The notes under the pieces were generated by a model. It did no database searches, was not told the DNA's origin, and worked only from the letters and a program-made list of their open reading frames with translations. Shown here piece by piece: positions 5,393 to 22,498 of a stretch of 64,000 nt of DNA (its first letter is position 1; every line of letters starts with the position of its first letter). The position numbers were made by a program, and so were the translations under genes. The stretch lies in assembly GCF_030053775.1 (NCBI RefSeq), contig NZ_CP125669.1, positions 62,001 to 126,000 of the forward strand, read 5' to 3'. Source of the DNA: Acinetobacter corruptisaponis (GTDB taxonomy: Bacteria; Pseudomonadota; Gammaproteobacteria; Pseudomonadales; Moraxellaceae).

Positions 5393-6580
5393 ATGAATAC
5401 CATGTTGAATGCCGTGCATGTACCTGAACCGCTTAGCCCAATGATTCCCCGTACCTTATTTAGTGCGGAGCATGAGGCTTTCCGCACTACAGCCCGTCGT
5501 TTCTTTGAAACCGAAATTGCGCCATTCCATGAAAAATGGGCAGAGCAGCAACATATTGATCGACAACTCTGGAATCGGGCAGGTGAACTGGGTTTATTGT
5601 GCTGCACCATGCCAGAACAATATGGTGGTTCAGGGGTTGACCGTCTTTATTCGATGATCTTGATTGAGGAACAGGCACGGGTGGGTGATTCTGCATCTGG
5701 TTTTGCACTACATTCTGACATTGTGGCGAACTACATCAATAATTTTGGCAATGAAGAACAAAAACAGGCTTGGTTGCCGAAGATGGCAACTGGTGAAGTG
5801 GTTACAGCAATTGCCATGACTGAACCAGGAACTGGATCAGATTTACAGGCCATTCGTACGACTGCAATTGAAGATGGCGATGATTATATTGTCAATGGTT
5901 CCAAAATCTTTATTACCAATGGCTATCTGTGTGATATGGCTGTAGTCGCGGTTAAAACAGGAACCAGCGAGAGTGGTGCGCAAAATGTCTCTCTCATGAT
6001 TATTGAGGCAGACCGTGAGGGATTTAGTAAAGGTAAGCCACTTAAAAAGGTGGGTATGCACGGTCAGGATACCTGTGAACTGTTCTTTAATGATATGCGT
6101 GTACCAAAGTCCAATTTGCTAGGTGTGGAGGGCATGGGCTTCTTTATGCTGATGAAAGAGTTGGCATGGGAACGCATGATGATTGGCATTATCTGTGCGG
6201 CAAGTGCAGAGGGGGCATTGGCAAGCACGGTTGAATATGTGAAATCCCGTAAAGCCTTTGGTAAATCTGTTGCGACTTTCCAAAACACCCGTTTCAAACT
6301 AGCGGAACTCCGTTCAGAAACACAGATTGCCCGTGTATTTGTAGATCGCTGTATGGAACAGATTTTAAAAAATGAATTATCGGTAGAAGCTGCCTGTGCC
6401 GCCAAATATTGGGTATCCGATTTAGCCAGCAAGGTTGTGGATGAGTGCGTGCAGTTGCATGGTGGTTATGGCTATATGCTGGAATATCCAATTGCCCGTG
6501 CCTATCTGGATATCCGTCCGAACCGAATTTATGGTGGCACCAATGAAATCATGAAAGAGTTGATTTCACGCACCATTTAA
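5393..6580 (+). CDS. Acyl-CoA dehydrogenase
   Basis: A 395-residue FAD-dependent acyl-CoA dehydrogenase of usual family length. It catalyses the alpha,beta-desaturation that begins beta-oxidation. The three family domains are recognisable: N-terminal helical (FFETEIAPFHEKWAE), middle beta (AIAMTEPGTGSDLQAIRTTA, a signature for FAD and substrate binding) and C-terminal helical (VQLHGGYGYMLEYPIARAYLD, NRIYGGTNEIMKELI). It is the first gene of an operon with a multifunctional hydratase/dehydrogenase and an SCPx-type thiolase, so together they encode a full oxidation cycle. The set resembles systems for branched, cyclic or sterol-like acyl chains rather than the common FadBA complex. The Shine-Dalgarno is weak. 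Confidence 0.92.
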   Translation: MNTMLNAVHVPEPLSPMIPRTLFSAEHEAFRTTARRFFETEIAPFHEKWAEQQHIDRQLWNRAGELGLLCCTMPEQYGGSGVDRLYSMILIEEQARVGDSASGFALHSDIVANYINNFGNEEQKQAWLPKMATGEVVTAIAMTEPGTGSDLQAIRTTAIEDGDDYIVNGSKIFITNGYLCDMAVVAVKTGTSESGAQNVSLMIIEADREGFSKGKPLKKVGMHGQDTCELFFNDMRVPKSNLLGVEGMGFFMLMKELAWERMMIGIICAASAEGALASTVEYVKSRKAFGKSVATFQNTRFKLAELRSETQIARVFVDRCMEQILKNELSVEAACAAKYWVSDLASKVVDECVQLHGGYGYMLEYPIARAYLDIRPNRIYGGTNEIMKELISRTI

Positions 6581-6619
6581 AACATGAATTGATTTAAAAA
6601 TATAGGAAGAAAAATAACA

Positions 6620-9600
6620 ATGTCGGAATTACGTTTTGATGGACGAGTGGCAATTGTCACAGGTGCGGGTGGTGGTTTAGGGCGACAACATGCGCTGACA
6701 CTGGCAGCACGAGGCTGTAAGGTGGTGGTCAATGATTTGGGCGGTAGCGCTCATGGAGCTGGTCATTCCTCATTGGCTGCGGATCAGGTGGTGGAGGAAA
6801 TCCGTGCGATGGGCGGTGAAGCGGTTGCCAATTACGATTCCGTGGAAAATGGCGAGGCAATCGTACAAACTGCCCTCGACCATTTTGGCACCGTGGATAT
6901 TGTCATCAATAATGCGGGGATTCTGCGTGATGTCAGTTTTGCCAAAATGACTGAGCAGGACTGGGATTTAGTCATGCGGGTACATCTCAACGGCAGTAAA
7001 AGTGTTTCCCATGCTGCTTGGCCCATCATGCGTGAAAAAGGCTATGGTCGAATTATCATGACCACGTCTGCGGCAGGTATCTACGGCAATTTTGGTCAGG
7101 CCAATTATTGTGCGGCTAAACTGGGAATTTTAGGTCTAGCCAACTGTCTGGCAGAAGAGGGCCGCAGTAAAAATATTTTCGTCAATACCATTGCACCTTT
7201 GGCAGCATCACGTTTGACTGAAACGGTGATGCCTCCTGAGTTACTGGCATTGCTGAAACCCGAAGCGGTCAGTCCTCTGGTGGCATGGTTATGCCATGAA
7301 AACTGTAAAGAGACTAAAGGATTGTTTGAAGTCGGTGCAGGCTTTATCGCCAAATTACGCTGGGAACGTACGCTGGGTCATTCGTTTCCCAATAATCGTG
7401 AATTTAATATAGATGACGTGGTGGCACGCTGGAATAAAATCACTGACTTTAATGAATCAACCCATCCAGACAGCACCACCGAATCCTTTACCCCAATTTT
7501 AGATGGGATCAACCACCCAAGTTTGGGCGGTAATGAATTTATTGATTTGGATGAGGCAGCTAAGGCGGAACTGGTGCTGGAGTCATCTTACGATGAAAGG
7601 GACCTGTCCCTGTATGCACTGGGAATTGGTGCAGCACGTGATCCACTGGACAAGTCCGAGTTGAAATATGTGTATGAACTGGGTGAGTTTGCGGCCATTC
7701 CAACCTATGGTGCGATGCCACAACTGAATGCCATGCTGGCTGCTGCCAAAACAGGAATCTTTAGTTTACCTGGCATGAACTTTGGTTTTGATCGCCTGCT
7801 GCATGGTGAGCAGTATATGGAGATCAAGCGTCCATTACCTCCACATGCCAAATTGCGCCACGTATTCAGGTTTAAGGAAGCATTTGATAAAGCACCAAAT
7901 GCTGTAGTCACTTTTGCGATTTCCACTCAGGATGAGTCGGGTGAGGAAATTGCCTACAACGAAATGACTTCATTTGTACGAGGTGCAGGTGGGTGGGGCG
8001 GTGACCGTGGTCCATCAGGGGAGGTGAATACACCACCAGACCGTGAACCAGATGTGATTATTGAAGAAAAAACTGATGCCAACCAGACCTTGTTGTATCG
8101 CCTGTCAGGGGACTGGAATCCGCTGCATGCCGATCCTGACTTTGCAAAAGCTTTCGGTTTTGAAAAACCGATCCTGCATGGCATGTGTACTTTCGGCTAT
8201 TGTGGCCGTCATGTGATCAAGGCGTTTTGTAATAATGATGAGCGTTATTTCAAGAGCATCAAGGTACGTTTTGCCAAGAGTGTATTTCCTGGTGATACGC
8301 TGGTCACTAAAATGTGGAAAGAGTCGGATAACCGCATTATCTTTGAAACCAGTGTCAAAGAACGCAATGAGGTTGTGATTAAGAATGCTGTGGTTGAACT
8401 GTATTCCGAGATTCCAAAAGCGGCAGCGAAGCCAAAAGTGGTGAATCAACAGACCGAAGTGGTTAGCCAAAGCACTGAACCAGACCGTTTAATTGCCAGT
8501 GATGTGTTTAAAGTGGTTGCAGATTATGTGGCGCAACATCCTGAACTGGTGGATAAAACCAAAACAGTATTTCTGTTTAAGCTGAAAAATCCTGAATCCG
8601 TGTGGACGCTGGACCTGAAAAATGGAAAGGGTGGATGCCAAAAAGGTGAAACTGAAAAAGCTGACGTGACACTGGAAATGAACGAGGAGCATCTGGAAAC
8701 CGTGGTCACCAGTTCATTGGCTGATGTGCAAAAACTGTTTTTTGGTGGTCAGTTAAAAATTGGCGGTAATGTCATGGCTTCCAATAAACTGACTGTGCTA
8801 CAGGACATCAATGCAGCACGTTATCAGGAAGTGAAACAGCAACGTCTTGCCAGTGCAGGTGCTACTACAACATCGAATGAACAAGCTGAAACTGCCCAAA
8901 ATACTGAAATTACATTGGCTGATGTCTTTAACGCTGTGAATGACTATCTCAATGAAAAAGGTGATTTGGCAGAAAAAACCAAAACCACTTTCCAGTTCCA
9001 TATCCATAACCCAGATTCAAACTGGTTTATTGACCTGAAAAATGGCAAAGGTGGTGCAGGGGCAGGCGATATTGATAAACCTGACGTGACTTTGGATATG
9101 GATGAGCAACATATTCCAACCGTGTTTGGTGGTTCACTGGCTGATGTGCAAAAACTGTTCTTTGGCGGTCAGCTCAAGATTGCGGGCAATGTCATGGCAT
9201 CAAATAAATTGACCATGCTACAGGACATGGGACAGCAGCGTGTTGAGGCAGCACGGGATAAGCGTATTGCTTCAGGCACAGTTTCTCAGGCAATAACAGC
9301 GAATAGCCCAGAACCTAAAAAACCGATGGATGCAAATGCTGTACTGATTTTTGCAGCATTACAAAAGCAAATTGAACAGATTCCAGTCAAGACAGGACGC
9401 ATTCAATTTAATATCACTGAACCCACAGCACAATGGACGGTTGATTTTGCACAGGCCACTGTCATGCAAGGTGAGGCTGACCAAGCCGATGTAACTTTTA
9501 GTCTAAGTGATAGCCATTTACTTGAGATTGTACAAGGTAAACGAGATAGCCGTGACCTGTATCAGCATGGTGAGTTACGTGTCGATGGTGACATTAAGCT

Positions 9601-11761: not shown

Positions 11762-12370
11762 TAAATTTTCAACAAGTCATTAAATGAGGAGAATGCCTAA
11801 ACATTTTTATGAATGCTTGGGCTATCAAATTATTGGGCAATCCACTTACATGAACGTGGATATCTCCACACTCAGGAAAGCTGCAATAACCATACAGCAA
11901 AGGCTTCACTAAAACAGAATTCGTTCAGCCTAAAATAACAACAGGGCAACCAAGATAGCACCGATTACCAGTTTTCAGGTTCATGCAACATTTAATATTT
12001 ATCCCGCAGTGCCACTTTTGTTCAAAAGACCATATTAGCCATAGTAAATTATTGGTGCCTAAAATAAGACTATTACTGGATTTTTTGGGTACAGCAACTG
12101 CCCGATAAATTTTAAGGACAGGTCGAAGTGGAGGTTTCTATAAAATTCACATGAAAAAAACTCATGGGTGATATACTTTTTCTCACTTTTTATTATTTCC
12201 TGTTTATGACATTTTATTCAGACTAGGAATACCAACCAGTTTACTTGGATAACATGAACACTGCTGAGGAGCATAGTGAAACTCAATATATGATCTTATT
12301 TCATCATTATTTTTTATGAGATTTTGAGTAATTCTTAGATATGGAAGTATGGGACAAATTAGGAGTGTCC
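11762..12370. other. Long spacer with possible gene remnants
   Basis: About 600 bases carry no convincing intact gene. A 39-codon ORF at 11793-11912 (MPKHFYECLGYQ...) has a GAGGAG just before it but only two bases of spacing, so I doubt it. On the minus strand around 11925-11985 one frame reads LVIGAILVALLLF followed by a stop, which looks like a transporter membrane segment from a decayed gene. The spacer also holds one CATGA-N7-TCATG dyad at 12150-12166 and presumably the LysR promoter. Confidence 0.4.
12150..12166. promoter_or_regulatory. CATGA-N7-TCATG dyad, copy 1 (LysR upstream region)
   Basis: CATGAAAAAAACTCATG: perfect 5-bp arms around a 7-base A-rich spacer, 204 bases before the LysR start. 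One of five copies found in the promoter regions of this block. Confidence 0.6.
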
Positions 12371-13291
12371 ATGAGAATCAAACCACTGCCACCCATGAAT
12401 AGCCTGATTGTATTTGAGGCAGCCGCACGCCACCTCAGCTTTACCCAGGCTGCAAATGAACTCAATGTTACCCAAGGCGCGATTAGTCGCCAGATTCGAC
12501 AGTTGGAAGAATATTTGGGCAAAGAGCTGTTTGTTAGGGCAAATCGCAACATTTCTTTAACGCCTGCTGGCTTGCAGTATTATCACACGATCTATAGTGC
12601 CTTGCTGGACGTGGCTCAAGCGACTGCTGAAATAAAGAAATGGCAAGGTGAACATCAGGTTACTATTGTGACAACCAATGCCATGGCTGCACTTTGGCTG
12701 TTACCTAAGGTGGCTACCTTTCAGCAAAATGAAGGAATTGATTTAAGAATATTAACGACAGAGAATATTCTTGATTTGCAAAAAATGGACTGTGATTTGG
12801 CCTTATTTTACTGCAAGGTTCCTCCTGTCGGTATGAAAGTTACTCCTTTATTTCCTGAAGAAGTTTTTCCAGTATGCAGTCCAGCTTATCTTGCCCAATT
12901 TCAGGAAAAAACGATTGATAATATTTTTGGAAAAAGTCTGCTGTCTCTGGATGAGTCTCAAAAGGATTGGATTAACTGGGCAGAGTGGTTTGCACTGGTG
13001 GATTATCCAATCTTTAAACCGAGGAACAGGGTCAATATTAATAATTACCCTTTGTTAATACAGGCTGCCATTAACGGTCAGGGCGTGGCTTTGGCATGGA
13101 GTTCTTTGGTTGATGATTATTTACAGAGTGGAGCATTAGTCCGCCCTGTAGAAACGATATTATGTAGTCAGGCAAACTTTTGTATGTTGGAACCATCTGA
13201 CAGAGGGGTGATTCCTTCAAGCGTAAAACAATTCCGTAGCTGGTTAATGGATCAGTTACCAGGACAGGTGGGGCAAAAAGGTTTGGGATAA
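12371..13291 (+). CDS. LysR family transcriptional regulator (GcvA-like)
   Basis: A 306-residue LysR-type regulator. The N-terminal winged helix is clear: PPMNSLIVFEAAARHLSFTQ, then AANELNVTQGAISRQIRQLE and LFVRANRNISLTPAG. A periplasmic-binding-protein-like effector domain follows. The PPMNSL(I)VFEAAARHLSFT opening is typical of the GcvA branch. ATG 12371 is chosen over the in-frame 12341 because AGGAG lies five bases before it. It converges on the BCCT transporter gene and lies next to the Rieske oxygenase operon, so it probably senses that operon's substrate. A CATGA-N7-TCATG dyad upstream, repeated at the operon promoters, is a candidate binding site. Confidence 0.92.
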   Translation: MRIKPLPPMNSLIVFEAAARHLSFTQAANELNVTQGAISRQIRQLEEYLGKELFVRANRNISLTPAGLQYYHTIYSALLDVAQATAEIKKWQGEHQVTIVTTNAMAALWLLPKVATFQQNEGIDLRILTTENILDLQKMDCDLALFYCKVPPVGMKVTPLFPEEVFPVCSPAYLAQFQEKTIDNIFGKSLLSLDESQKDWINWAEWFALVDYPIFKPRNRVNINNYPLLIQAAINGQGVALAWSSLVDDYLQSGALVRPVETILCSQANFCMLEPSDRGVIPSSVKQFRSWLMDQLPGQVGQKGLG

Positions 13292-13371: not shown

Positions 13372-15039
13372 TCAGTTTTTGGTGCTATCCACTGATTCCT
13401 TTACGGTCTTGAACTCATCAGGGCGTAAATGTTCAGGCATCATTACCCATGCTTGAGGATCTTGGCGTAAACTTTTAATAAGTGAGGCGCACATCACCAT
13501 CAACAAAATTGAGATGGGGAAGCCTGCAATCACGCATGCGGTTTTAATGGCAGACAGTCCGCCTGCCAATAATAAGCCACCGCTAATGAGTGGAATAATG
13601 ACAGCCCAAGTCAAACGTATGCCTACAGATGGATTGGTTGAACCATTGGTATCTAGAAAACACAATACTAGTGCCCCTGAGTTGGCGATGGTAATAATGT
13701 GGATCGACAGTAACAAGCATAGTAAGGCACTTAAAAAAAGTGTTGTGGTGTGGTTCGATGAAAGATGGTCGAAGAACACAAATACGGCACGGGCAGGGTC
13801 TTCTTTCGTTGCTTCAGCAATGGTAACTTCATGTGTGGTTTTCCCTGCTGATGGAGTGGAGGATTGAGTTGTTTTAACAACCACCTCTTGAGCAATAGGT
13901 TGCTGATGGTTGGCTTTTTCAATTTTAAGGGCAGCGCCACCAAATGCGGCAATCCAGATAAAGGTCAGTAAGGTTGGGGCGGCAAGTGAACCGAGAATAA
14001 CCTCACGAATGGTACGCCCCCTTGAAATGCGCGCAATGAATAATCCAACAAAAGGTGCCCATGTCATCCACCATGGCCAATAATATGCTGTCCACCAACT
14101 TTGCCATGCTGTGTCTTTTTGAGCGTCACTCCATAAACTCATACCCACAATGTTTTGTAGATAGTCGCCTAAACCCTCAAAGAAAGCATTAAAAATATAA
14201 CGGGTTGAGCCAATTAAAATGACGGCAATCACCAGAAAATAAGAGAGAACCATATTTCCTTCAGCGATCATTTTAAAACCCTTACTAATTGCGGAGAGTA
14301 AAGATAAGGTTGCAAAAACACCTAAAATAAGCACAAGGACCAATTGGATTTTAACGTCAATATTAATGCCAAAACTATGGTTCAAACCCACATTGAGTTC
14401 CAAAATACCCATACTAATGGCTTGGGAGACTCCAAAAGCAGTTAAGACAATTGTCGTAATATCAACAATATTACCAATTGTTCCATAAATTTTATCACCA
14501 ATAAAAGGATGTAAAACTGAACGGCAAGCCAAAGGTAAATCTTTACGATAGGCAAAATAACCTAAAGCCACGGCAGACAATGAGAATAGTGCCCAGGGAT
14601 GCAAACCCCAGTGGAAAAAGGTCAGTTGCATTGCCATTCGGGCGGACTCATCAGAGAAGTCCTTGGTAAATGGGTTGTTGGCATAATGGCTAATGGGTTC
14701 AGCCACTGACCAGAACATTAGTCCAATCCCCATACCACATGAAAATAACATACAGATCCAGGCGATATTACTATATTCAGGCTTTTCATTATCCTTACCT
14801 AAACGAATATGCCCAAAACGACTCATACATAAATAAATAAGGAAACCGACTAGAAATGTTGCCAAAAAAAGTAAATACCATTTTGCATTGGTTAATAAGG
14901 CATTGGAAATCATTCCAAAATATTCACCTGCCTGTTTTTCATAAAAAATACAAAATGCAATGAATAGAAAAAGTAATACCTTTGAAACAATCGTAACCGT
15001 TGGATTTAGTCCAGATAGAACTTTTGTTGTTGTACGCAT
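13372..15039 (-). CDS. BCCT family transporter (betaine/carnitine/choline type)
   Basis: A 555-residue secondary transporter of the BCCT family, expected to have twelve membrane segments and import quaternary-ammonium or betaine-like solutes. Family signatures are WSVAEPISHYANNP, the following WGLHPWALFSLSAVALGYFAYR, and the tryptophan-rich core WWTAYYWPWWMTWAPFVGLF with RGRTIREVILG. About 50 hydrophilic residues after AALKIEKAN (SSTPSAGKTTHEV...) form an unusually long extramembrane loop. A strong GGAGGAG precedes the ATG, with a 10-bp stem hairpin just upstream. The gene diverges from the Rieske oxygenase operon, and two CATGA-type dyads lie between them, so it is probably the substrate importer for that operon. 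Confidence 0.92.
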   Translation of the reverse strand: MRTTTKVLSGLNPTVTIVSKVLLFLFIAFCIFYEKQAGEYFGMISNALLTNAKWYLLFLATFLVGFLIYLCMSRFGHIRLGKDNEKPEYSNIAWICMLFSCGMGIGLMFWSVAEPISHYANNPFTKDFSDESARMAMQLTFFHWGLHPWALFSLSAVALGYFAYRKDLPLACRSVLHPFIGDKIYGTIGNIVDITTIVLTAFGVSQAISMGILELNVGLNHSFGINIDVKIQLVLVLILGVFATLSLLSAISKGFKMIAEGNMVLSYFLVIAVILIGSTRYIFNAFFEGLGDYLQNIVGMSLWSDAQKDTAWQSWWTAYYWPWWMTWAPFVGLFIARISRGRTIREVILGSLAAPTLLTFIWIAAFGGAALKIEKANHQQPIAQEVVVKTTQSSTPSAGKTTHEVTIAEATKEDPARAVFVFFDHLSSNHTTTLFLSALLCLLLSIHIITIANSGALVLCFLDTNGSTNPSVGIRLTWAVIIPLISGGLLLAGGLSAIKTACVIAGFPISILLMVMCASLIKSLRQDPQAWVMMPEHLRPDEFKTVKESVDSTKN

Positions 15040-15370: not shown

Positions 15371-16561
15371 ATGAATAGTCAAGTTAGCCAGCAACTGATT
15401 ACGGTTCAGCAAATCGACAATGTATTAAACCCTATTACTGAATCCAATGGTATGCCAAATATGGCGTATACCAGCGATGCATACTTTAATTTTGAGCGTG
15501 ACAATATCTTAAGCAAAACCTGGGTATGTGTCGGTTTTGCTTCTGATTTACCTAAAAATAATTATGTGAAACCTGTGGATTTCATGGGCATGCCATTGGT
15601 GATGATGCGCAACCGTGATGGTTTGGTTCAGGTTTTCCACAATGTCTGTAGCCATCGTGGCATGCAGCTTGTGCATGATGAGGGAGCCATTGAGGGGGTG
15701 ATTCGTTGTCCATATCACTCTTGGAGTTATGACCTAAATGGTAACCTGAAAGGCACACCGCATGTTGGCGGAATTGGTCAGCATAAAGATGAACGCTTTA
15801 AATGTGAAAAACATGGCCTAAAGGCACTCCGTTCGGCAATCTGGATGGACATGGTTTTTGTCAATATTTCAGGTGATGCAGCATCATTTGAAGAACATAT
15901 TGCGCCATTGGTGCAGCGCTGGAAACCTTTCCTCGGAGAAAATGGTTTAGACCTGATTCATAGCAGTAAAATTGGTTCACATTTTGAACTTCCAGTAAAA
16001 AGTAACTGGAAACTCACGGTCGAAAACTATTGTGAGGCCTATCACTTGCCGTGGGTACATCCTGCATTAAACAGCTATTCAAAACTTGAAGACCACTACA
16101 ACATCATGTTCGAAGATCGTTTTGCAGGACAGGGCAGTTATAAATACAACCTGTCTGCAACCGCAGGAACGCATTTGCCAAAATTCCCAAGCTGGCCAGA
16201 AGACCAGTTACGCCATGCTGAATATGTGGCGGTATTTCCAAATGTACTGTTAGGTATTCAGGCAGATCATGCCTTTGCCATGATGATTGACCCGATTGCA
16301 CCCGAAAAAACCATTGAAAAACTGCGTTTGTACTATGTTGGCGATGAATCACTAGACCCTAAATATGATGCATGCCGTGCAGCAACGCTGGAATCATGGA
16401 AAGTGGTATTTGCTGAAGATGTTTTTGCAGTTGAGACCATGCAAAAAGGCCGTCATTCTCCTGGTTTTGGTGGTGGTGTGTTCTCACCTGAAATGGACTT
16501 GCCCACACATTTCTTCCAACAGTGGTTGGCAACCCAAGCTAAAAAGGCATTGGAGGCATAA
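15371..16561 (+). CDS. Rieske non-heme iron oxygenase, alpha subunit
   Basis: A 396-residue Rieske oxygenase. The [2Fe-2S] ligands are Cys93, His95, Cys113 and His116 (VCSHRGM and RCPYHSW). The mononuclear iron site is the facial triad His225, His230 (ENYCEAYHLPWVH) and probably Asp350 (FAEDVF). Such enzymes hydroxylate or N-dealkylate using electrons from a reductase. Its association with a BCCT importer, an aldehyde dehydrogenase and a DAO-type amine oxidase favours a betaine-like or N-methyl substrate, as in glycine betaine (GbcA), carnitine (CntA) and stachydrine (Stc2) catabolism. No beta subunit is encoded nearby, as is usual in that group. No plant-type ferredoxin reductase is adjacent; the rubredoxin-reductase fusion downstream is the candidate electron donor. 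Confidence 0.92.
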   Translation: MNSQVSQQLITVQQIDNVLNPITESNGMPNMAYTSDAYFNFERDNILSKTWVCVGFASDLPKNNYVKPVDFMGMPLVMMRNRDGLVQVFHNVCSHRGMQLVHDEGAIEGVIRCPYHSWSYDLNGNLKGTPHVGGIGQHKDERFKCEKHGLKALRSAIWMDMVFVNISGDAASFEEHIAPLVQRWKPFLGENGLDLIHSSKIGSHFELPVKSNWKLTVENYCEAYHLPWVHPALNSYSKLEDHYNIMFEDRFAGQGSYKYNLSATAGTHLPKFPSWPEDQLRHAEYVAVFPNVLLGIQADHAFAMMIDPIAPEKTIEKLRLYYVGDESLDPKYDACRAATLESWKVVFAEDVFAVETMQKGRHSPGFGGGVFSPEMDLPTHFFQQWLATQAKKALEA

Positions 16562-16562
16562 T

Positions 16563-17993
16563 ATGCAGCATTACCTCAATTATGTTGGTGGCCAATGGCT
16601 GGATAGTTCCCGCCAATTGCAAGTCATCAACCCTGCGACAGCAGAAGTGTTTGCAACAGTTGCCCAGGCAGGTATTGACGATGCCGATGCCGCTATGGCA
16701 GCCGCATGCCGTTGTACCAATAGTGGTGCATTAACCGATGTCCGTCCTGCACAACGCACTGCCTGGATGCTTAAAGCTGCCGCCGCAATCCGTGAATTTA
16801 CCGAAGAGGGCGCTTTAATCCTTTGTCGTGAGAATGGCAAAAATCTGGATACTGCCCGTGAAGAGTTTGATGAGGCGGCACGTTATTTTGAATATTACGC
16901 AGGTATGGCAGATAAGGTCGAAGGTATTTCTGTTCCTTTGGGTAAGGATTACGTTGATTTTACCTCCTATATTCCAATGGGTGTTTCGGTTCAGATCGTA
17001 CCGTGGAATTTCCCCGTTTCAATTTGTGCCCGTTCACTTGCGCCCGCTTTGGCGGCAGGAAACGCCGTTGTGGTGAAATCGCCAGAAGTCTCACCGTTGG
17101 GTATGGTGCTGTTGTTTAGGGCACTTGAAAAAGCTGGCTTTCCACAAGGTGCGATTAACCTGTTGTGCGGTAAAGGTTCAGAAGTCGGTACCCATCTGGT
17201 TAAACATCAGTATACCAATCAAATTGTATTTACAGGTTCAGTCCCCACAGGCCAGCGTATTTTAAAAGATGCAGCAGAACGTGCTACGCCATCCGTGATG
17301 GAACTGGGTGGAAAATCAGCCGCAATCGCCTTTGCTGATGTTGATTTAGAGCAGTTATTACGCAGTGTCAAAGTGGGTATTTTCTATAACTCTGGACAGG
17401 TCTGTTCAGCCATGTCGCGTTTGTTGGTACATCGCAGCCGTTATGACGAGGTGAAAAATGCTGTGGTGGCACTGGCGGAAAGCCTGAGTATTGGGATTGG
17501 TGAAGACAATGCTGAACTGACTCCAGTGGTGTCTAAAGATCAGCAGCAGCAAATACTGGCAATGATCGAGAAAGCACGCCTAGAGGGAGCCAATATTTTA
17601 ACAGGTGGTACAGCTCCTGAGTTGGCAGGCTATTTTGTTTTACCAACAATTGTTGAGGCAACACCAAATCTATCAATTGCACAGCAGGAAGTGTTTGGGC
17701 CTGTCATGGTGATCATGCCATTTGATGATGAAGATGAAGCCGTTGCGATAGCCAATGGCACGGACTTTGGTTTGGTGGCAGGCGTTTTTGGTGAAAATCT
17801 TAACCAGACATTACGTGTTGCAAACCGTTTGATTGCAGGTCAGGTATTTATCAATGAATGGTTTGCAGGTGGGATTGAAACCCCATTTGGGGGTGTTGGC
17901 CTATCGGGTTTTGGTCGTGAGAAAGGGCAGGAAGCCATCTACAGTTATGTGCAGACCCGCAATATTGGGATTCGTCTGAAACATAACGCATAA
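16563..17993 (+). CDS. NAD(P)-dependent aldehyde dehydrogenase
   Basis: A 476-residue aldehyde dehydrogenase of usual length. It begins at ATG 16563, directly after the Rieske stop codon; a longer in-frame ORF from 16365 overlaps the Rieske gene and is spurious. Cofactor and active-site motifs are [20 protein letters not shown], the glutamate region [13 protein letters not shown] and the catalytic cysteine in [12 protein letters not shown]. It should oxidise an aldehyde formed by the Rieske oxygenase or by the DAO-family enzyme. Family resemblance is to betaine-aldehyde-type enzymes, but the exact substrate cannot be assigned. Tight spacing shows translational coupling with the oxygenase. Confidence 0.92.
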
Positions 17994-18018
17994 ATTGGGA
18001 TATAAGGGAATAGACACG

Positions 18019-19371
18019 ATGAGAAAGTGGTTATGTATTGTCTGTGGCTGGATCTATGACGAAGTAAAAGGCTGGCCAGAAGATGGGATTGCTCCAGGCA
18101 CAAAATGGGAAGATGTCCCAGAAGACTGGCTGTGTCCTGATTGTCAGGTCGGCAAAGCTGATTTTGAAATGCTGGATATTACTGATACTGATATTGAGAT
18201 AGAAGAACCACAGGTGATCAGTGTGGTTGAGCCTATCGTGATCATTGGCAGTGGACATGCAGGTTATCAACTGGCTTTGGCATTACGCAAGCAATCTCAG
18301 GATGTGTCTATTACCGTATTTACCGCAGATGATGGGGCGATTTATAGCAAGCCTGCCTTATCCAATGCCTTGGCTTTGGGTAAGGATGGGGACAGTCTGG
18401 TTCGTGAAACAGCTTTGAGCTGGGAAAAACATCTCAATGTACGTGTCTATCCCCATACCAAAGTTACCCAGATTGACCGTGCCAATAAAAAAATCCAGAC
18501 CTCAATTGGTGAATATCCATATGGTCGTCTGGTATTGGCAACGGGTGCCACCCCAATTGTGGTGCCAATTCAGGGCGATACCTCAGCCGTTCTGAGTGTC
18601 AATGATTTGGCTGATTATCGTCATTTCCGTCAGCAACTGACAGGTAAACAGCATGTCACCGTTTTGGGTGATGGCCTGATTGGATGTGAATTTGCCAATG
18701 ATCTGGCCGTTCATGGTATTCAGGTTTCCGTGGTTGGATTGGGTCAGTGGGCAATGCAGCGTTTGATTCCACAACCTTTAGGCAATGCCTTGCAACAGGC
18801 ACTGAGCCAGCTGGGGGTGGAGTGGAAACTGCAAAATAGTATCCATTCAATTCTGGCGGTCAATAATCGTTATCAGGTGACATTGCAGGGTGGACAACAG
18901 TTTGAAACCGACCTTATTGTCAGTGCTGTGGGCTTACGTCCAAATATTGCTTTAGCCCAGACAGCGGGTCTGGATACCGCACGGGGTATTTTGACAGGCT
19001 TGGATCACCGTACCAGTGATGCATCTATTTTTGCGCTGGGTGACTGTGCCGAGGTGAATGGGCAGTGGACACCCTATATCGCGCCAATTAACCAGGCGAT
19101 TCCAGCCCTGACTGATAATTTGCTTGGCAAGAACCAAACCACGCAATTACAGGACAGCCCTGTCATTGTCAAAACCCCAGTTTTACCGCTATCGCTTCTC
19201 CCTGCGATGAGTGAGGGGGAGTGGCGTATTGAACAACAGAATGATGAATGGGCAGCAGGTTTTTATGATGCAACGGGCAAGTTGACAGGCTTTGCGTTAC
19301 TTGGCCGCCAATTGCAGCAACACCGTAGCCAATGGCTTGCCAAACTCAATACCCATCCAGCTACAGTTTAA
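18019..19371 (+). CDS. Rubredoxin fused to FAD/NAD(P) rubredoxin-type reductase
   Basis: A 450-residue fusion. Residues 1-50 are a rubredoxin with iron ligands Cys6, Cys9, Cys39 and Cys42 ([10 protein letters not shown] and [10 protein letters not shown]). After an acidic linker, residues about 75-450 are a pyridine-nucleotide-disulfide-type flavoprotein like rubredoxin reductase or NorW: FAD motif [21 protein letters not shown] motif [18 protein letters not shown] and FALGDCAEV. Electrons should pass from NAD(P)H through FAD to the rubredoxin iron, and then probably to the Rieske oxygenase encoded upstream. ATG 18019 is chosen because it starts the rubredoxin exactly; the frame is open from 17995. 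Separate rubredoxin and reductase genes are usual in Acinetobacter alkane oxidation, so the fusion is notable. Confidence 0.9.
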
Positions 19372-19382
19372 GGACGAACGAA

Positions 19383-20702
19383 ATGATCGCTTTACCAAAT
19401 GATGATAAAAGTTGTGGTTGGTATGATGTTTTGCCAATGAGGACTAAGCCTGTTCAAAAGCTTACAGGTACACAACAAGCGGACTATGCCATTATTGGTG
19501 CAGGTTTTGCGGGCTTGGCGGCAGCCCGCAGGCTCTCTGAACTAAAACCCAATGCCCGTATTATTTTGGTTGACGCACAATGTGTTGCCGAGGGGGCATC
19601 TGGCCGTAATTCGGGTTTTGTGATTGATTTACCGCATAAATTTTCTTTAGAACATCCCGACCCAGCATTAAAGCAAAAGTTATTGAGCCTGAATCGTTCA
19701 GCGATTGCTCAGCTACAGGGTTTGGTGGATAAGTTCCATATAGACTGTCAGTGGTCGGCGGCAGGCAAATATCAGGGAGCTGTTGGAGAGCTTGGAGAAA
19801 CGCATCTCGCCCATTTTGAACACTTGATGAAAGACTTGGGTGAAGAATATCGTTGGGTGGAAAAGGCTGAACTGAAAAAGGTAATAGGGACAGACTACTA
19901 TAGTCGAGCGATTTTTACACCAAATTCATATTTGATGCAACCAGCAGCCTTGGTTCGTGGCATGGGTGAAAATCTGCCAGAAAATGTCGAATTGCTGGAA
20001 CAGTCTCCAATTCGCAGCCTACAAAAGCAAAATGGGCAATGGCTATTACAAGGCGACAATGGCTCAATCATTAGCCCTAAACTATTGCTGGGAACCAGTA
20101 TCTTCACCAAAGAGTTTGGTTATCTGAAAAATCGTTTATTGCCTGTGATGACTTTCGCCAGCTGGACACGTCCACTGACTGATCAGGAAATGAAAGTCTA
20201 TAACGGTGAACAGGATTGGGGGCTGACTCCTGCCCATCACGCAGGTACAACCTTACGCATGACGGCAGACCGCCGTATCCTGATCCGCAATACCTATAAG
20301 CATGTACCGAAGTATGGTGCGAACGTCAGTGATTATGCCCGACAACAAATTCATAACGAACATCGTAAGGCATTCTTAAACCGATATCCTGATTTGGCAG
20401 ATGTACCGTTTACCCATACATGGGGTGGCGTTTATGCCATTTCACGTAACTTTACCAATTTCTTTGGTGAGCTGGATGAGGGGGTTTATGCCAGTGCCTG
20501 TGACAATGGTGTTGGTGCAGCATGGGGAACAATCTCAGGCACATTACTTGCCGATCTAGTGGTTGGGGCCGATTCCCAAGCCTTGAGAGATATTCGCTAT
20601 GTCACAGGAATGCCAAGTTTAAATCCACCAGAACCATTTTTGGGCATGGGAGTGAAATTCCGTATCGCCTTGGCGAAGTGGCAAAGCAAGAGTGAGCTAT
20701 AA
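19383..20702 (+). CDS. FAD-dependent amine oxidoreductase, DAO family (PuuB-like)
   Basis: A 439-residue flavoprotein of the D-amino-acid oxidase family. The FAD-binding motif YAIIGAGFAGLAAARRLSEL starts near residue 36, followed by GASGRNSGFVIDLPHKFS, a pattern seen in gamma-glutamylputrescine oxidase and sarcosine-oxidase relatives. It should oxidise a secondary or N-methyl amine and release an aldehyde. ATG 19383 has TAAGGA upstream and follows the rubredoxin-reductase gene by eleven bases. With the Rieske oxygenase upstream, a two-step N-dealkylation is suggested: the oxygenase acts on a quaternary or tertiary amine, and this enzyme acts on the product. Confidence 0.88.
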   Translation: MIALPNDDKSCGWYDVLPMRTKPVQKLTGTQQADYAIIGAGFAGLAAARRLSELKPNARIILVDAQCVAEGASGRNSGFVIDLPHKFSLEHPDPALKQKLLSLNRSAIAQLQGLVDKFHIDCQWSAAGKYQGAVGELGETHLAHFEHLMKDLGEEYRWVEKAELKKVIGTDYYSRAIFTPNSYLMQPAALVRGMGENLPENVELLEQSPIRSLQKQNGQWLLQGDNGSIISPKLLLGTSIFTKEFGYLKNRLLPVMTFASWTRPLTDQEMKVYNGEQDWGLTPAHHAGTTLRMTADRRILIRNTYKHVPKYGANVSDYARQQIHNEHRKAFLNRYPDLADVPFTHTWGGVYAISRNFTNFFGELDEGVYASACDNGVGAAWGTISGTLLADLVVGADSQALRDIRYVTGMPSLNPPEPFLGMGVKFRIALAKWQSKSEL

Positions 20703-20714
20703 AAGGATATCAGC

Positions 20715-21068
20715 ATGAAAGAAGTTCGTTTAGTCGATAGTAAAGAGCTTGATTTTAATCTGCGTGGGGAGACGCCAACAGGCACAGCCTATGTGGCACG
20801 TGCATTGGGCGCAGATGTATCTCCTAATATAGGCATTGGTTTTGCCTGTTGGGAGGGGGCGGAAGTCTCCTGGAAACTACTCTATGACGAAGTGATTTTT
20901 GTAATTGAAGGCTGCTTTGAACTGACTGCCAATGGTCAGAAATATGAGGTTCGCCCTGGACAAATGCTCTGGATACCAGAGGGTACTGACCTGGTTTATG
21001 GCGGTCATGCGACCTTTGGCTATGTGGTACATCCAGGTAACTGGAAAGAGCTACATGGCTTAACCTAA
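20715..21068 (+). CDS. Small cupin-domain protein (EutQ-like)
   Basis: A 117-residue single cupin. The beta-barrel pattern is visible: SWKLLYDEVIFVIEGCFELT, NGQKYEVRPGQMLWIPEGT and a glycine-rich end. Histidine metal ligands are sparse: the usual HxH of cupin motif 1 is replaced (LLYDE), as in EutQ-like ethanolamine proteins. It may therefore be non-catalytic or a ligand binder. It is the last gene of the Rieske operon, 12 bases after the amine oxidase. Its function in the pathway is unknown. Confidence 0.8.
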   Translation: MKEVRLVDSKELDFNLRGETPTGTAYVARALGADVSPNIGIGFACWEGAEVSWKLLYDEVIFVIEGCFELTANGQKYEVRPGQMLWIPEGTDLVYGGHATFGYVVHPGNWKELHGLT

Positions 21069-21266: not shown

Positions 21267-22445
21267 ATGAATACAATAATTTATCGTAATTTTGGAATGG
21301 GCTTATTTGTATTTGGGATGGCATTGTCGACCTTTGCTGGCATTACAATAGGTGATCCAAAAGCTGATACGGGTGCCTTTACGGTTTCAGGTACTCTACG
21401 TGCCAAATACAACTACAAAGACTATGGTCATGATGTTGACCTAGATAATAGTGTTCAGTTTGATGCTGCAATTATCAACTTAGGGTATGAGTCACCAAAT
21501 GTATTTGCCAATGCGCAATGGCGTTGTTATCAGTGGAATGATCTATGTGATTTCTCAACCTTGGTTTCTGCATACGCTGGCTATCGCCTAAATGAGACGG
21601 ATAACGTTACCCTTGGTTTACAGCCCGTTCCTTTTGGTCCAGGTCGTTATTGGGACAGCAGCTTTTATGCGGGTCTCAACTATACAATGGGGCTTCAGGA
21701 TGTGCTCAATCTAGGCTTGAATTATCATGCGGAGTTGCCATCAGCGACCAAGGTTGATTTGGCTTATTTTGTGAGAGATGGAGGCAACTATACAGGAACA
21801 GCGGATAATGATACTGCCCGTTACTCGGCCAATATAGTCAAAACAGACAACCCAACCATGACCAGCCTCAAAGAAAAGAATATGGTGGTGGCACGTGTGA
21901 GCCAGGACCTCAGCTTTTTAAATCATGATGACTTAAAAATGGCAGTTGGTGGAAGCTATTGGTATTCGCAGCTTGATAACAAGCGTAATGGTGAAGAGGG
22001 TAATCGTAAGGCATGGTCTTTATTTAATACCATTCATTACCAGAATTTCGGCTTAACGCTTACGGGTGGACAGATTGAAATAGATAACAAGGATCCAATT
22101 TCCAGTTATTCAACTTTTGGTTCATTTGACGCCGAATACAATATTGCAAATAAGGGAACTTTTTATTCAGTTGACATGAATTATACATTTAAGAATGTAA
22201 AGGATAATCTGAATGTTACGCCTTATATCGTCCTGAGTGGATTCAATAAGGAGGAAAATGGCTTTCAAGATTCACAACGCAATATCATTGGTGCAGCCTG
22301 GAACCATAAAAATATTTCCCTTTATACAGAATATGTTATGAGTAAAAATGATGTATTCATTGGTGGAAATACTGATTCATTTGCAGCAGGCGATGATGGT
22401 AAATGGAAAAAGTTGGTGAATCTCATGTTTATGTATAGTTTTTAA
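21267..22445 (+). CDS. Outer-membrane porin, paralogue of the gene at 57212
   Basis: A 392-residue protein with an N-terminal signal peptide ending near STFA-GITIGD and a C-terminal aromatic residue (MYSF), as expected for an outer-membrane beta-barrel. It is clearly related to the protein at 57212-58384: shared stretches include RCYQW/RCYQY, LCDFST, Q(P)xPFG.GR and LNYHAELP/VNYHAELP, and length is equal within two residues. A conserved cysteine pair (RCYQ, LCDF) may form a disulfide. Each porin follows a catabolic operon, so it probably admits that operon's substrate. The preceding 198-base spacer holds no other gene, so it may have its own promoter. Confidence 0.85.
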   Translation: MNTIIYRNFGMGLFVFGMALSTFAGITIGDPKADTGAFTVSGTLRAKYNYKDYGHDVDLDNSVQFDAAIINLGYESPNVFANAQWRCYQWNDLCDFSTLVSAYAGYRLNETDNVTLGLQPVPFGPGRYWDSSFYAGLNYTMGLQDVLNLGLNYHAELPSATKVDLAYFVRDGGNYTGTADNDTARYSANIVKTDNPTMTSLKEKNMVVARVSQDLSFLNHDDLKMAVGGSYWYSQLDNKRNGEEGNRKAWSLFNTIHYQNFGLTLTGGQIEIDNKDPISSYSTFGSFDAEYNIANKGTFYSVDMNYTFKNVKDNLNVTPYIVLSGFNKEENGFQDSQRNIIGAAWNHKNISLYTEYVMSKNDVFIGGNTDSFAAGDDGKWKKLVNLMFMYSF

Positions 22446-22455
22446 AGATAGGTTG

Positions 22456-22488
22456 AAAAATATGGGCGCTCCTAGCGCCCATATTTTT
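22456..22488. terminator. Bidirectional terminator between porin and EamA genes
   Basis: AAAAATATGGGCGCT and AGCGCCCATATTTTT form a 15-bp perfect stem around CCT, with T-tracts for both converging transcripts. Confidence 0.92.
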
Positions 22489-22498
22489 TTGATTTTAT

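Follow-up and report, generated by a model that had tools for sequence, protein, structure and literature searches.

How does a Rieske oxygenase receive its electrons when its operon encodes none of the usual donors? The question is raised by five forward-strand genes at positions 15371–21068 of a 64,000-nucleotide stretch of the 4.15-Mb Acinetobacter corruptisaponis genome (contig NZ_CP125669.1, positions 62,001 to 126,000; hereafter the window). The genes overlap or lie at most 25 bases apart, and they encode a Rieske oxygenase (RO), an aldehyde dehydrogenase (ALDH), a fusion of rubredoxin with rubredoxin reductase, a DAO-type flavoprotein, and a EutQ-like cupin:

15371..16561, + strand: RO, CntA-like and of group Va by its residues (PF00355, Rieske; PF00848, Ring_hydroxyl_A)
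16548..17993, + strand: ALDH, betaine-aldehyde-dehydrogenase-like (PF00171, Aldedh)
18019..18183, + strand: rubredoxin domain of the fusion, residues 1–55, with cysteines 6, 9, 39, and 42 (PF00301)
18184..18228, + strand: variable linker from rubredoxin to reductase (gaps in the alignment; pLDDT below 50 at residues 54–68)
18229..19371, + strand: FAD/NAD(P)H rubredoxin-reductase domain and C-terminal rubredoxin-binding domain (PF07992, PF18113)
19380..20702, + strand: DAO-family FAD oxidoreductase (PF01266)
20715..21068, + strand: EutQ-like cupin (PF06249)

A Pfam scan and reading of the open reading frames (ORFs) found no plant-type reductase or ferredoxin within the operon. The first-pass annotation, made from the sequence alone, had described a complete RO accompanied by a rubredoxin-reductase fusion in place of these donors, and Pfam models and relatives confirm the parts at these positions. 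We propose that the operon serves the breakdown of a quaternary-ammonium (betaine-like) compound, and that the rubredoxin is probably the electron donor of the RO. Five lines of comparison favor the fusion in this role: an identical distribution of the two genes in Acinetobacter, a fixed gene order in seven genera, retention of the rubredoxin alone at one locus, a PDR/VanB-type reductase beside the related RO in roseobacters, and loss of docking residues from the RO. That the fusion feeds the RO appears to be the best reading of these data, and comparative support for this proposed route is good.

The fusion is a single 450-residue frame (18019–19371) with three Pfam domains, all above gathering scores: Rubredoxin (residues 3–49), Pyr_redox_2 (73–348; PF07992, 181 bits), and PF18113 (377–443; 67.1 bits). 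The ORF list begins it at a TTG at 17995; the conserved start is the ATG at 18019, preceded by AAGGGA. The FeS4 cysteines (C6, C9, C39, and C42) are invariant in all 29 aligned fusion rows (row L086, whose chosen range contained a stop, was left out). A chance, annotation, or frame artefact was ruled out, because the frame is open in 20 of 20 RO-bearing Acinetobacter genomes and relatives share both the two-domain frame and the invariant cysteines. Among PDB sequences, both halves best match rubredoxin 2 and rubredoxin reductase of P. aeruginosa (2v3a, 2v3b), which are two separate proteins there, whereas here they are fused and linked to an RO. An AlphaFold2 model of the fusion has a mean pLDDT of 87, with residues 54–68 below 50, and a fold search with it placed the P. 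aeruginosa reductase (2v3a) first (TM-score 0.94 by target length). The window rubredoxin carries the motifs CIVCG and CPDCQ, and the residue after the fourth cysteine varies among fusions (G, L, H, K, Q); the criterion given in the available part of PMC8918992 for AlkG2-type, electron-transfer-competent rubredoxins is two CXXCG motifs.

The co-occurrence of the gene pair, which the first-pass annotation had proposed to check across genomes, was borne out. An RO is present in 20 of 175 Acinetobacter genomes, and an open-frame fusion (65–100% identity) in exactly those 20, with the two genes on the same strand and 2648–2825 bp apart. Other rubredoxin/reductase matches at the threshold occur in 42 more Acinetobacter genomes, at 41–46% identity and with stop codons within the match, as would separate neighboring rubredoxin and reductase genes. 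The genome-contig collection was compared through the best 80 fusion-matching loci among the matches listed. RO, ALDH, and fusion follow one another in the same order in 33 of the 34 of these loci whose fusion is at least 48% identical, and this order is constant across seven named genera; Pseudomonas umsongensis (L046) is one carrier of the operon. No RO was seen in the 46 loci with more distant matches (42–45% identity; several are short contigs), which rules out that any rubredoxin/reductase fusion accompanies an RO. Neither RO nor ALDH is missing from any of the 33 loci; DAO and cupin are missing from three, all from Marinobacterium (L057, L059, and L062). Among the plasmid records, five have an RO at 60% identity or more, and the same five are the ones with a fusion at 48% or above. 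The 36 fusion-matching plasmid records (E 1e-60) include none of the 77 from Phaeobacter, Leisingera, and Ruegeria, whose RO is more distant (below 60%, E up to 1e-85).

In the genus of genome G843, seven of 124 genomes have the RO, four of them with an intact fusion. In G949 the fusion is split over three frames, and assembly error is indistinguishable from decay; this locus is counted as fusion-linked in the tree and residue comparisons below. In G987 a lone rubredoxin gene occupies the place of the fusion, with no room for a reductase. Its product is 76% identical to the window rubredoxin over 58 residues; the genome also holds a second rubredoxin, and its reductase-like matches are just 29–34% identical. 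The carrier can therefore outlast its reductase.

A different arrangement is seen in the roseobacters, whose ROs are 47–50% identical to the window RO (among the matches listed, 60 of 82 rows). In five of the eight roseobacter records examined (two Ruegeria and three Phaeobacter species), a PDR/VanB-family reductase, divergent from a LysR gene, lies beside the related RO; no PDR/VanB-type reductase was found beside the RO in the three Leisingera records examined. In both Ruegeria records this stretch also contains genes for sarcosine oxidase and BCCT proteins. The first-pass annotation had held that an essential, separate ferredoxin reductase in homologous operons would tell against the fusion. 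In form, the roseobacter branch supplies such operons, but its records lack the fusion, so we read the PDR/VanB neighbor as donor exchange; this branch does show that rubredoxin is not required throughout the RO family. Separately, a conserved 79-residue protein that is not a rubredoxin follows the ALDH in roseobacter clusters (L185:11628-11867 and L188:11580-11819).

The surface that would meet the donor was compared between these groups. In E. coli YeaW, the surface around Arg83, Lys104, and Lys117 has been proposed, in the accessible text of PMC9508527, to receive the plant-type reductase. Among 45 fusion-linked ROs, the Arg83 place holds Q, N, or K (36, 4, and 5 rows), the Lys104 place Q or E (29 and 16), and the Lys117 place D in all 45 (E108 and D121 in the window RO at the latter two places); two of the three docking places thus lack a basic residue in every fusion-linked RO. 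Five VanB-linked ROs have G, R, and G at the three places, and 26 ROs without a local donor vary, nine of them being basic at the Lys104 place. The mean net charge of the Rieske domain is 0.22 for fusion-linked, 3.20 for VanB-linked, and 1.12 for no-local-donor ROs, a difference that is suggestive and, like the docking-residue pattern, confounded by descent. A quick tree was built from 71 ROs after near-duplicate or partial rows, eight in all (L040, L042, L044, L047, L051, L059, L179, and L193), had been left out; 21 of its 68 inner branches are open, and its outgroup row is very long. A set with support 99 unites 33 rows: 31 fusion-linked ROs, the rubredoxin-only row, and one row whose fusion gene is lost. 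A second set (support 89) has ten rows, eight fusion-linked and two without a local donor. The label "fusion" requires five changes on this tree, against a mean of 23.6 for shuffled labels. A single early acquisition with losses and two acquisitions both fit.

Several observations weigh against the fusion as donor. The operon is inherited as one piece, so its co-occurrence in Acinetobacter shows linkage and not 20 independent events. One locus (L064) has a fusion at 48% identity and no RO on its 11.3-kb contig. In G055, of the genus of G843, nothing lies between ALDH and DAO, the fusion gene having been lost. At the order level, 16 further RO genomes were found among 390 searched, and only four have the fusion (G843, G815, G736, and G901), whereas G055, which is one of the 16, has none and eight more have no donor nearby. 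At the class level, 369 genomes were searched and 12 have RO relatives; none of the 12 has a fusion or donor nearby, or a rubredoxin-plus-reductase match at E 1e-30. Absence of a local donor was scored by phmmer at E 1e-5, the queries being the rubredoxin, the reductase, and three FNR-Fer2 proteins, and at some loci by eye, so a divergent reductase could have escaped detection; L125 has an FNR-Fer2 match of 27 bits at a distance of 7.7 kb. The Arg83 place fails to separate the donor classes. A mirror-tree test on the window and on the 37 loci, out of 43, that hold all six genes found no RO–reductase signal beyond shared descent (partial correlation -0.16). The main chemical doubt concerns potential: rubredoxin potentials generally lie above those of oxygenase Rieske centers, so the transfer may be uphill, pulled by O2 chemistry. 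The proposal that the fusion feeds the RO, raised in the first-pass annotation, holds as the best reading of linkage, apparent donor exchange, and docking residues, qualified by the many distant RO relatives without a local donor.

Contig ends and neighboring genes account for further order-level loci. The contig of G669 ends inside a rubredoxin-bearing frame, and that of G766 right after the RO. A true GbcB (680 bits; cut-off 500) lies about 3 kb from the RO in G746. The GbcB gene at L176, separated from its RO by about 3 kb and other genes, may serve another oxygenase and is weak evidence of donor exchange.

It is possible, though doubtful, that any rubredoxin system suffices, the fusion being a convenience copy and the cell's separate rubredoxin and rubredoxin reductase serving the RO equally well. 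G055, with its RO but no fusion gene, has a rubredoxin-plus-reductase pair elsewhere; G987 keeps the rubredoxin alone beside a second rubredoxin in the genome; and the window's genome encodes another rubredoxin reductase besides the fusion. Yet every RO-bearing Acinetobacter genome has the fusion with an open frame, in a genus where free-standing rubredoxin reductases are common.

Less probable still is a supply from outside the rubredoxin systems, in which a housekeeping ferredoxin or a desaturase-linked FNR-Fer2 reductase feeds the RO and the fusion serves another step or guards against peroxide made by the DAO protein. The ROs without a local donor, G055 included, would fit such a supply, and the window's genome has candidates for it: the six Fer2 matches comprise small ferredoxins and FNR-Fer2 reductases, three of each (named by sequence reading). 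All three of these reductases, however, adjoin desaturase-like genes, and the lysines that dock a plant-type reductase are absent from the RO. Nor does the fusion track the DAO gene; it tracks RO and ALDH, as the three Marinobacterium loci without DAO and cupin show. No CntB/GbcB/VanB-type reductase was found beside either RO of this genome, 3.3 kb being seen around the second. This second RO-like gene, the only other one in the genome, encodes 351 residues and adjoins a LysR gene (L138:781-1836, contig C1 near 786,400). By eye, the FNR-Fer2 loci (L145, L146, and L147) are three similar pairs of a reductase with a fatty-acid-desaturase-like protein.

The nearest PDB sequences of the RO are chains of CntA, the carnitine monooxygenase. 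A model of the RO (pLDDT 80, low around the cluster loops) is best matched in fold by CntA (6zgp_G; Z 30.3, rmsd 3.7, 343 residues aligned), followed by stachydrine-demethylase entries (3vca; Z 29.6, rmsd 4.0, 359 aligned); aromatic dioxygenases are just 1–2 Z units lower. The Rieske ligands (C93, H95, C113, and H116), the iron histidines (H225 and H230), and the bridging glutamate (E222, at the place of CntA E205) are kept in 79 of 79 aligned ROs. Y220 stands at the place of CntA Tyr203, which is Tyr or Phe in all 79; the available part of PMC7948474 assigns an aromatic residue at this position to group Va and Asn to group Vb. The carboxylate-binding residues of CntA (Tyr225, Asn270, and Tyr295) correspond to H242, G295, and L318, the alignment being less sure at the last two, and the CntA Cys206/Cys209 pair is not kept. 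The best NCBIfam match is GbcA (glycine betaine monooxygenase), yet at 125.1 bits it is far below the equivalog cut-off of 670. Since the group Va ligands, bridging glutamate, and aromatic residue are present and the CntA cysteine pair and carboxylate residues are absent, the RO appears, by its residues, to be a group Va-like oxygenase that is neither CntA nor GbcA. Carnitine and glycine betaine were considered as natural substrates and judged unlikely on residues and profiles.

The ALDH, whose nearest PDB sequence is a betaine-aldehyde dehydrogenase, scores 401 bits with the corresponding model, under the cut-off of 668.6. Choline and benzalkonium oxygenases release aldehydes. The CntA product is likewise an aldehyde, malic semialdehyde, according to the accessible portion of PMC10952381. 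Aldehyde release by these enzymes suits an ALDH that follows the RO, and the pair would be compatible with oxidation of the choline type, in which bacteria would parallel the plant choline monooxygenase with its betaine-aldehyde dehydrogenase. By eye, several RO relatives adjoin sarcosine-oxidase-type genes, one scoring 480.8 bits with the soxB model (cut-off 529.45).

These neighbors, together with sequences, folds, and key residues nearest to group V quaternary-ammonium enzymes, make it improbable that the substrate of the RO is an N-methylated heteroaromatic betaine (e.g., homarine) or another ring compound and not an aliphatic quaternary amine, though aromatic ROs score only 1–2 Z units lower. 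Records of relatives do carry the label "aromatic ring-hydroxylating dioxygenase subunit alpha," which is generic, and pyridinium betaines might be among the cargo of BCCT transporters. PMC13390433 cites a homarine pathway conserved in bacteria, and the 2026 pathway paper cited there might describe a related operon.

For an aliphatic quaternary amine, family membership and gene order suggest the following route. The BCCT transporter encoded upstream would import the substrate, the RO would oxidize it to an aldehyde, the ALDH would oxidize the aldehyde, and the DAO flavoprotein might then treat the remaining amine. Electrons would pass from NAD(P)H through FAD to the rubredoxin FeS4 center, all within the fusion polypeptide, and from there, as we infer, to the Rieske [2Fe-2S] center and by way of the bridging Glu222 to the mononuclear iron.

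Among known systems, CntA/CntB (YeaW/YeaX) of group Va is the closest to the RO, sharing fold, Rieske and iron ligands, bridging glutamate, and the tyrosine for the ammonium group. Its donor, however, is an FMN plant-type [2Fe-2S] reductase, whereas the present operon has the fusion and no CntB-like partner, and the CntA carboxylate-binding residues, cysteine pair, and docking lysines are lost. GbcA/GbcB differs in the position of the RO far below the GbcA cut-off, in the tyrosine that stands where group Vb has Asn (PMC7948474, in part), and in the lack of GbcB from the operon. The reductase half of the fusion has the fold of the BphA4/TodA-type reductases of three-component Rieske dioxygenases; those systems use a separate [2Fe-2S] ferredoxin, and here rubredoxin is fused to the reductase.

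Rubredoxin has precedents beside Rieske oxygenases in Rhodococcus. The available text of PMC5209329 lists Rub1 with the naphthalene dioxygenase and calls a rubredoxin crucial for o-xylene oxidation in R. opacus TKN14, and that of PMC4591350 lists rubredoxin genes among the nar genes. In these naphthalene and o-xylene systems rubredoxin is thus likewise a carrier, or crucial, beside a Rieske oxygenase; they are, however, aromatic dioxygenases with large and small subunits, from an actinobacterium, and as far as these sources describe them the listed rubredoxins are separate proteins. In the accessible parts of the open-licence literature, we found no account of this operon, of a rubredoxin donor for group V ROs, or of such a fusion serving an RO. 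In the electron chain that the first-pass annotation called unusual, neither the reductase fold nor a rubredoxin is new to Rieske systems.

On balance, and somewhat less firmly than for the donor role itself, we favor a distinct electron-supply class: a quaternary-ammonium monooxygenase lineage with a dedicated NAD(P)H–FAD–rubredoxin polypeptide, in which the obligate carrier is rubredoxin in place of a [2Fe-2S] ferredoxin, and a family in which rubredoxin and plant-type donors have been exchanged and the docking face remodeled. Electron-transfer partners form part of the basis on which ROs are classified, and the choice of partner restricts how these enzymes can serve as biocatalysts. A natural one-polypeptide rubredoxin donor for one RO lineage in seven named genera would, if true, mean a further type of donor, connect betaine catabolism with electron carriers of the alkane type, and give enzyme engineers a compact partner. 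The change of docking face on a switch from [2Fe-2S] to FeS4 also becomes testable inside one protein family.

The unit exceeds the five genes; the divergent BCCT gene, the LysR gene, and the porin-like gene belong to it too:

12341..13291, + strand: LysR-family regulator, GcvA-like (Pfam HTH_1 and LysR_substrate; match given from 12371)
13372..15039, - strand: BCCT transporter, divergent from the RO (PF02028; TIGR00842, 430 bits, over the cut-off)
21267..22445, + strand: porin-like outer-membrane protein (named by sequence reading; no Pfam or NCBIfam match)
22455..22489, + strand: terminator-like hairpin (pattern scan; candidate only)

The LysR gene is present at most fusion loci. The BCCT protein scores under the cut-offs of the betaine and BetT equivalog models and is probably responsible for substrate uptake. 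The porin-like gene was matched by phmmer downstream of the cupin in six Acinetobacter loci (L031–L035 and L061) and is probably the last of the unit.

Fusions were also seen in other surroundings. In two Halieaceae-type genomes (L077 and L080, about 6200–9370; both among the 46 more distant loci), they adjoin an apparent UbiA-type gene, judged by eye, so such fusions occur outside RO operons as well. Two open frames, of 563 and 551 residues and away from the RO (G046:C20:43587-45209 and G746:C40:1673-3253), match rubredoxin twice and the reductase once, and resemble a double-rubredoxin/reductase fusion. Downstream of the operon on a plasmid of Pseudomonas sp. MPC6, a DddP-like gene of the DMSP lyase family (L187:16219-17466; 440.5 bits, below the cut-off of 600) sits between MFS and BCCT genes.

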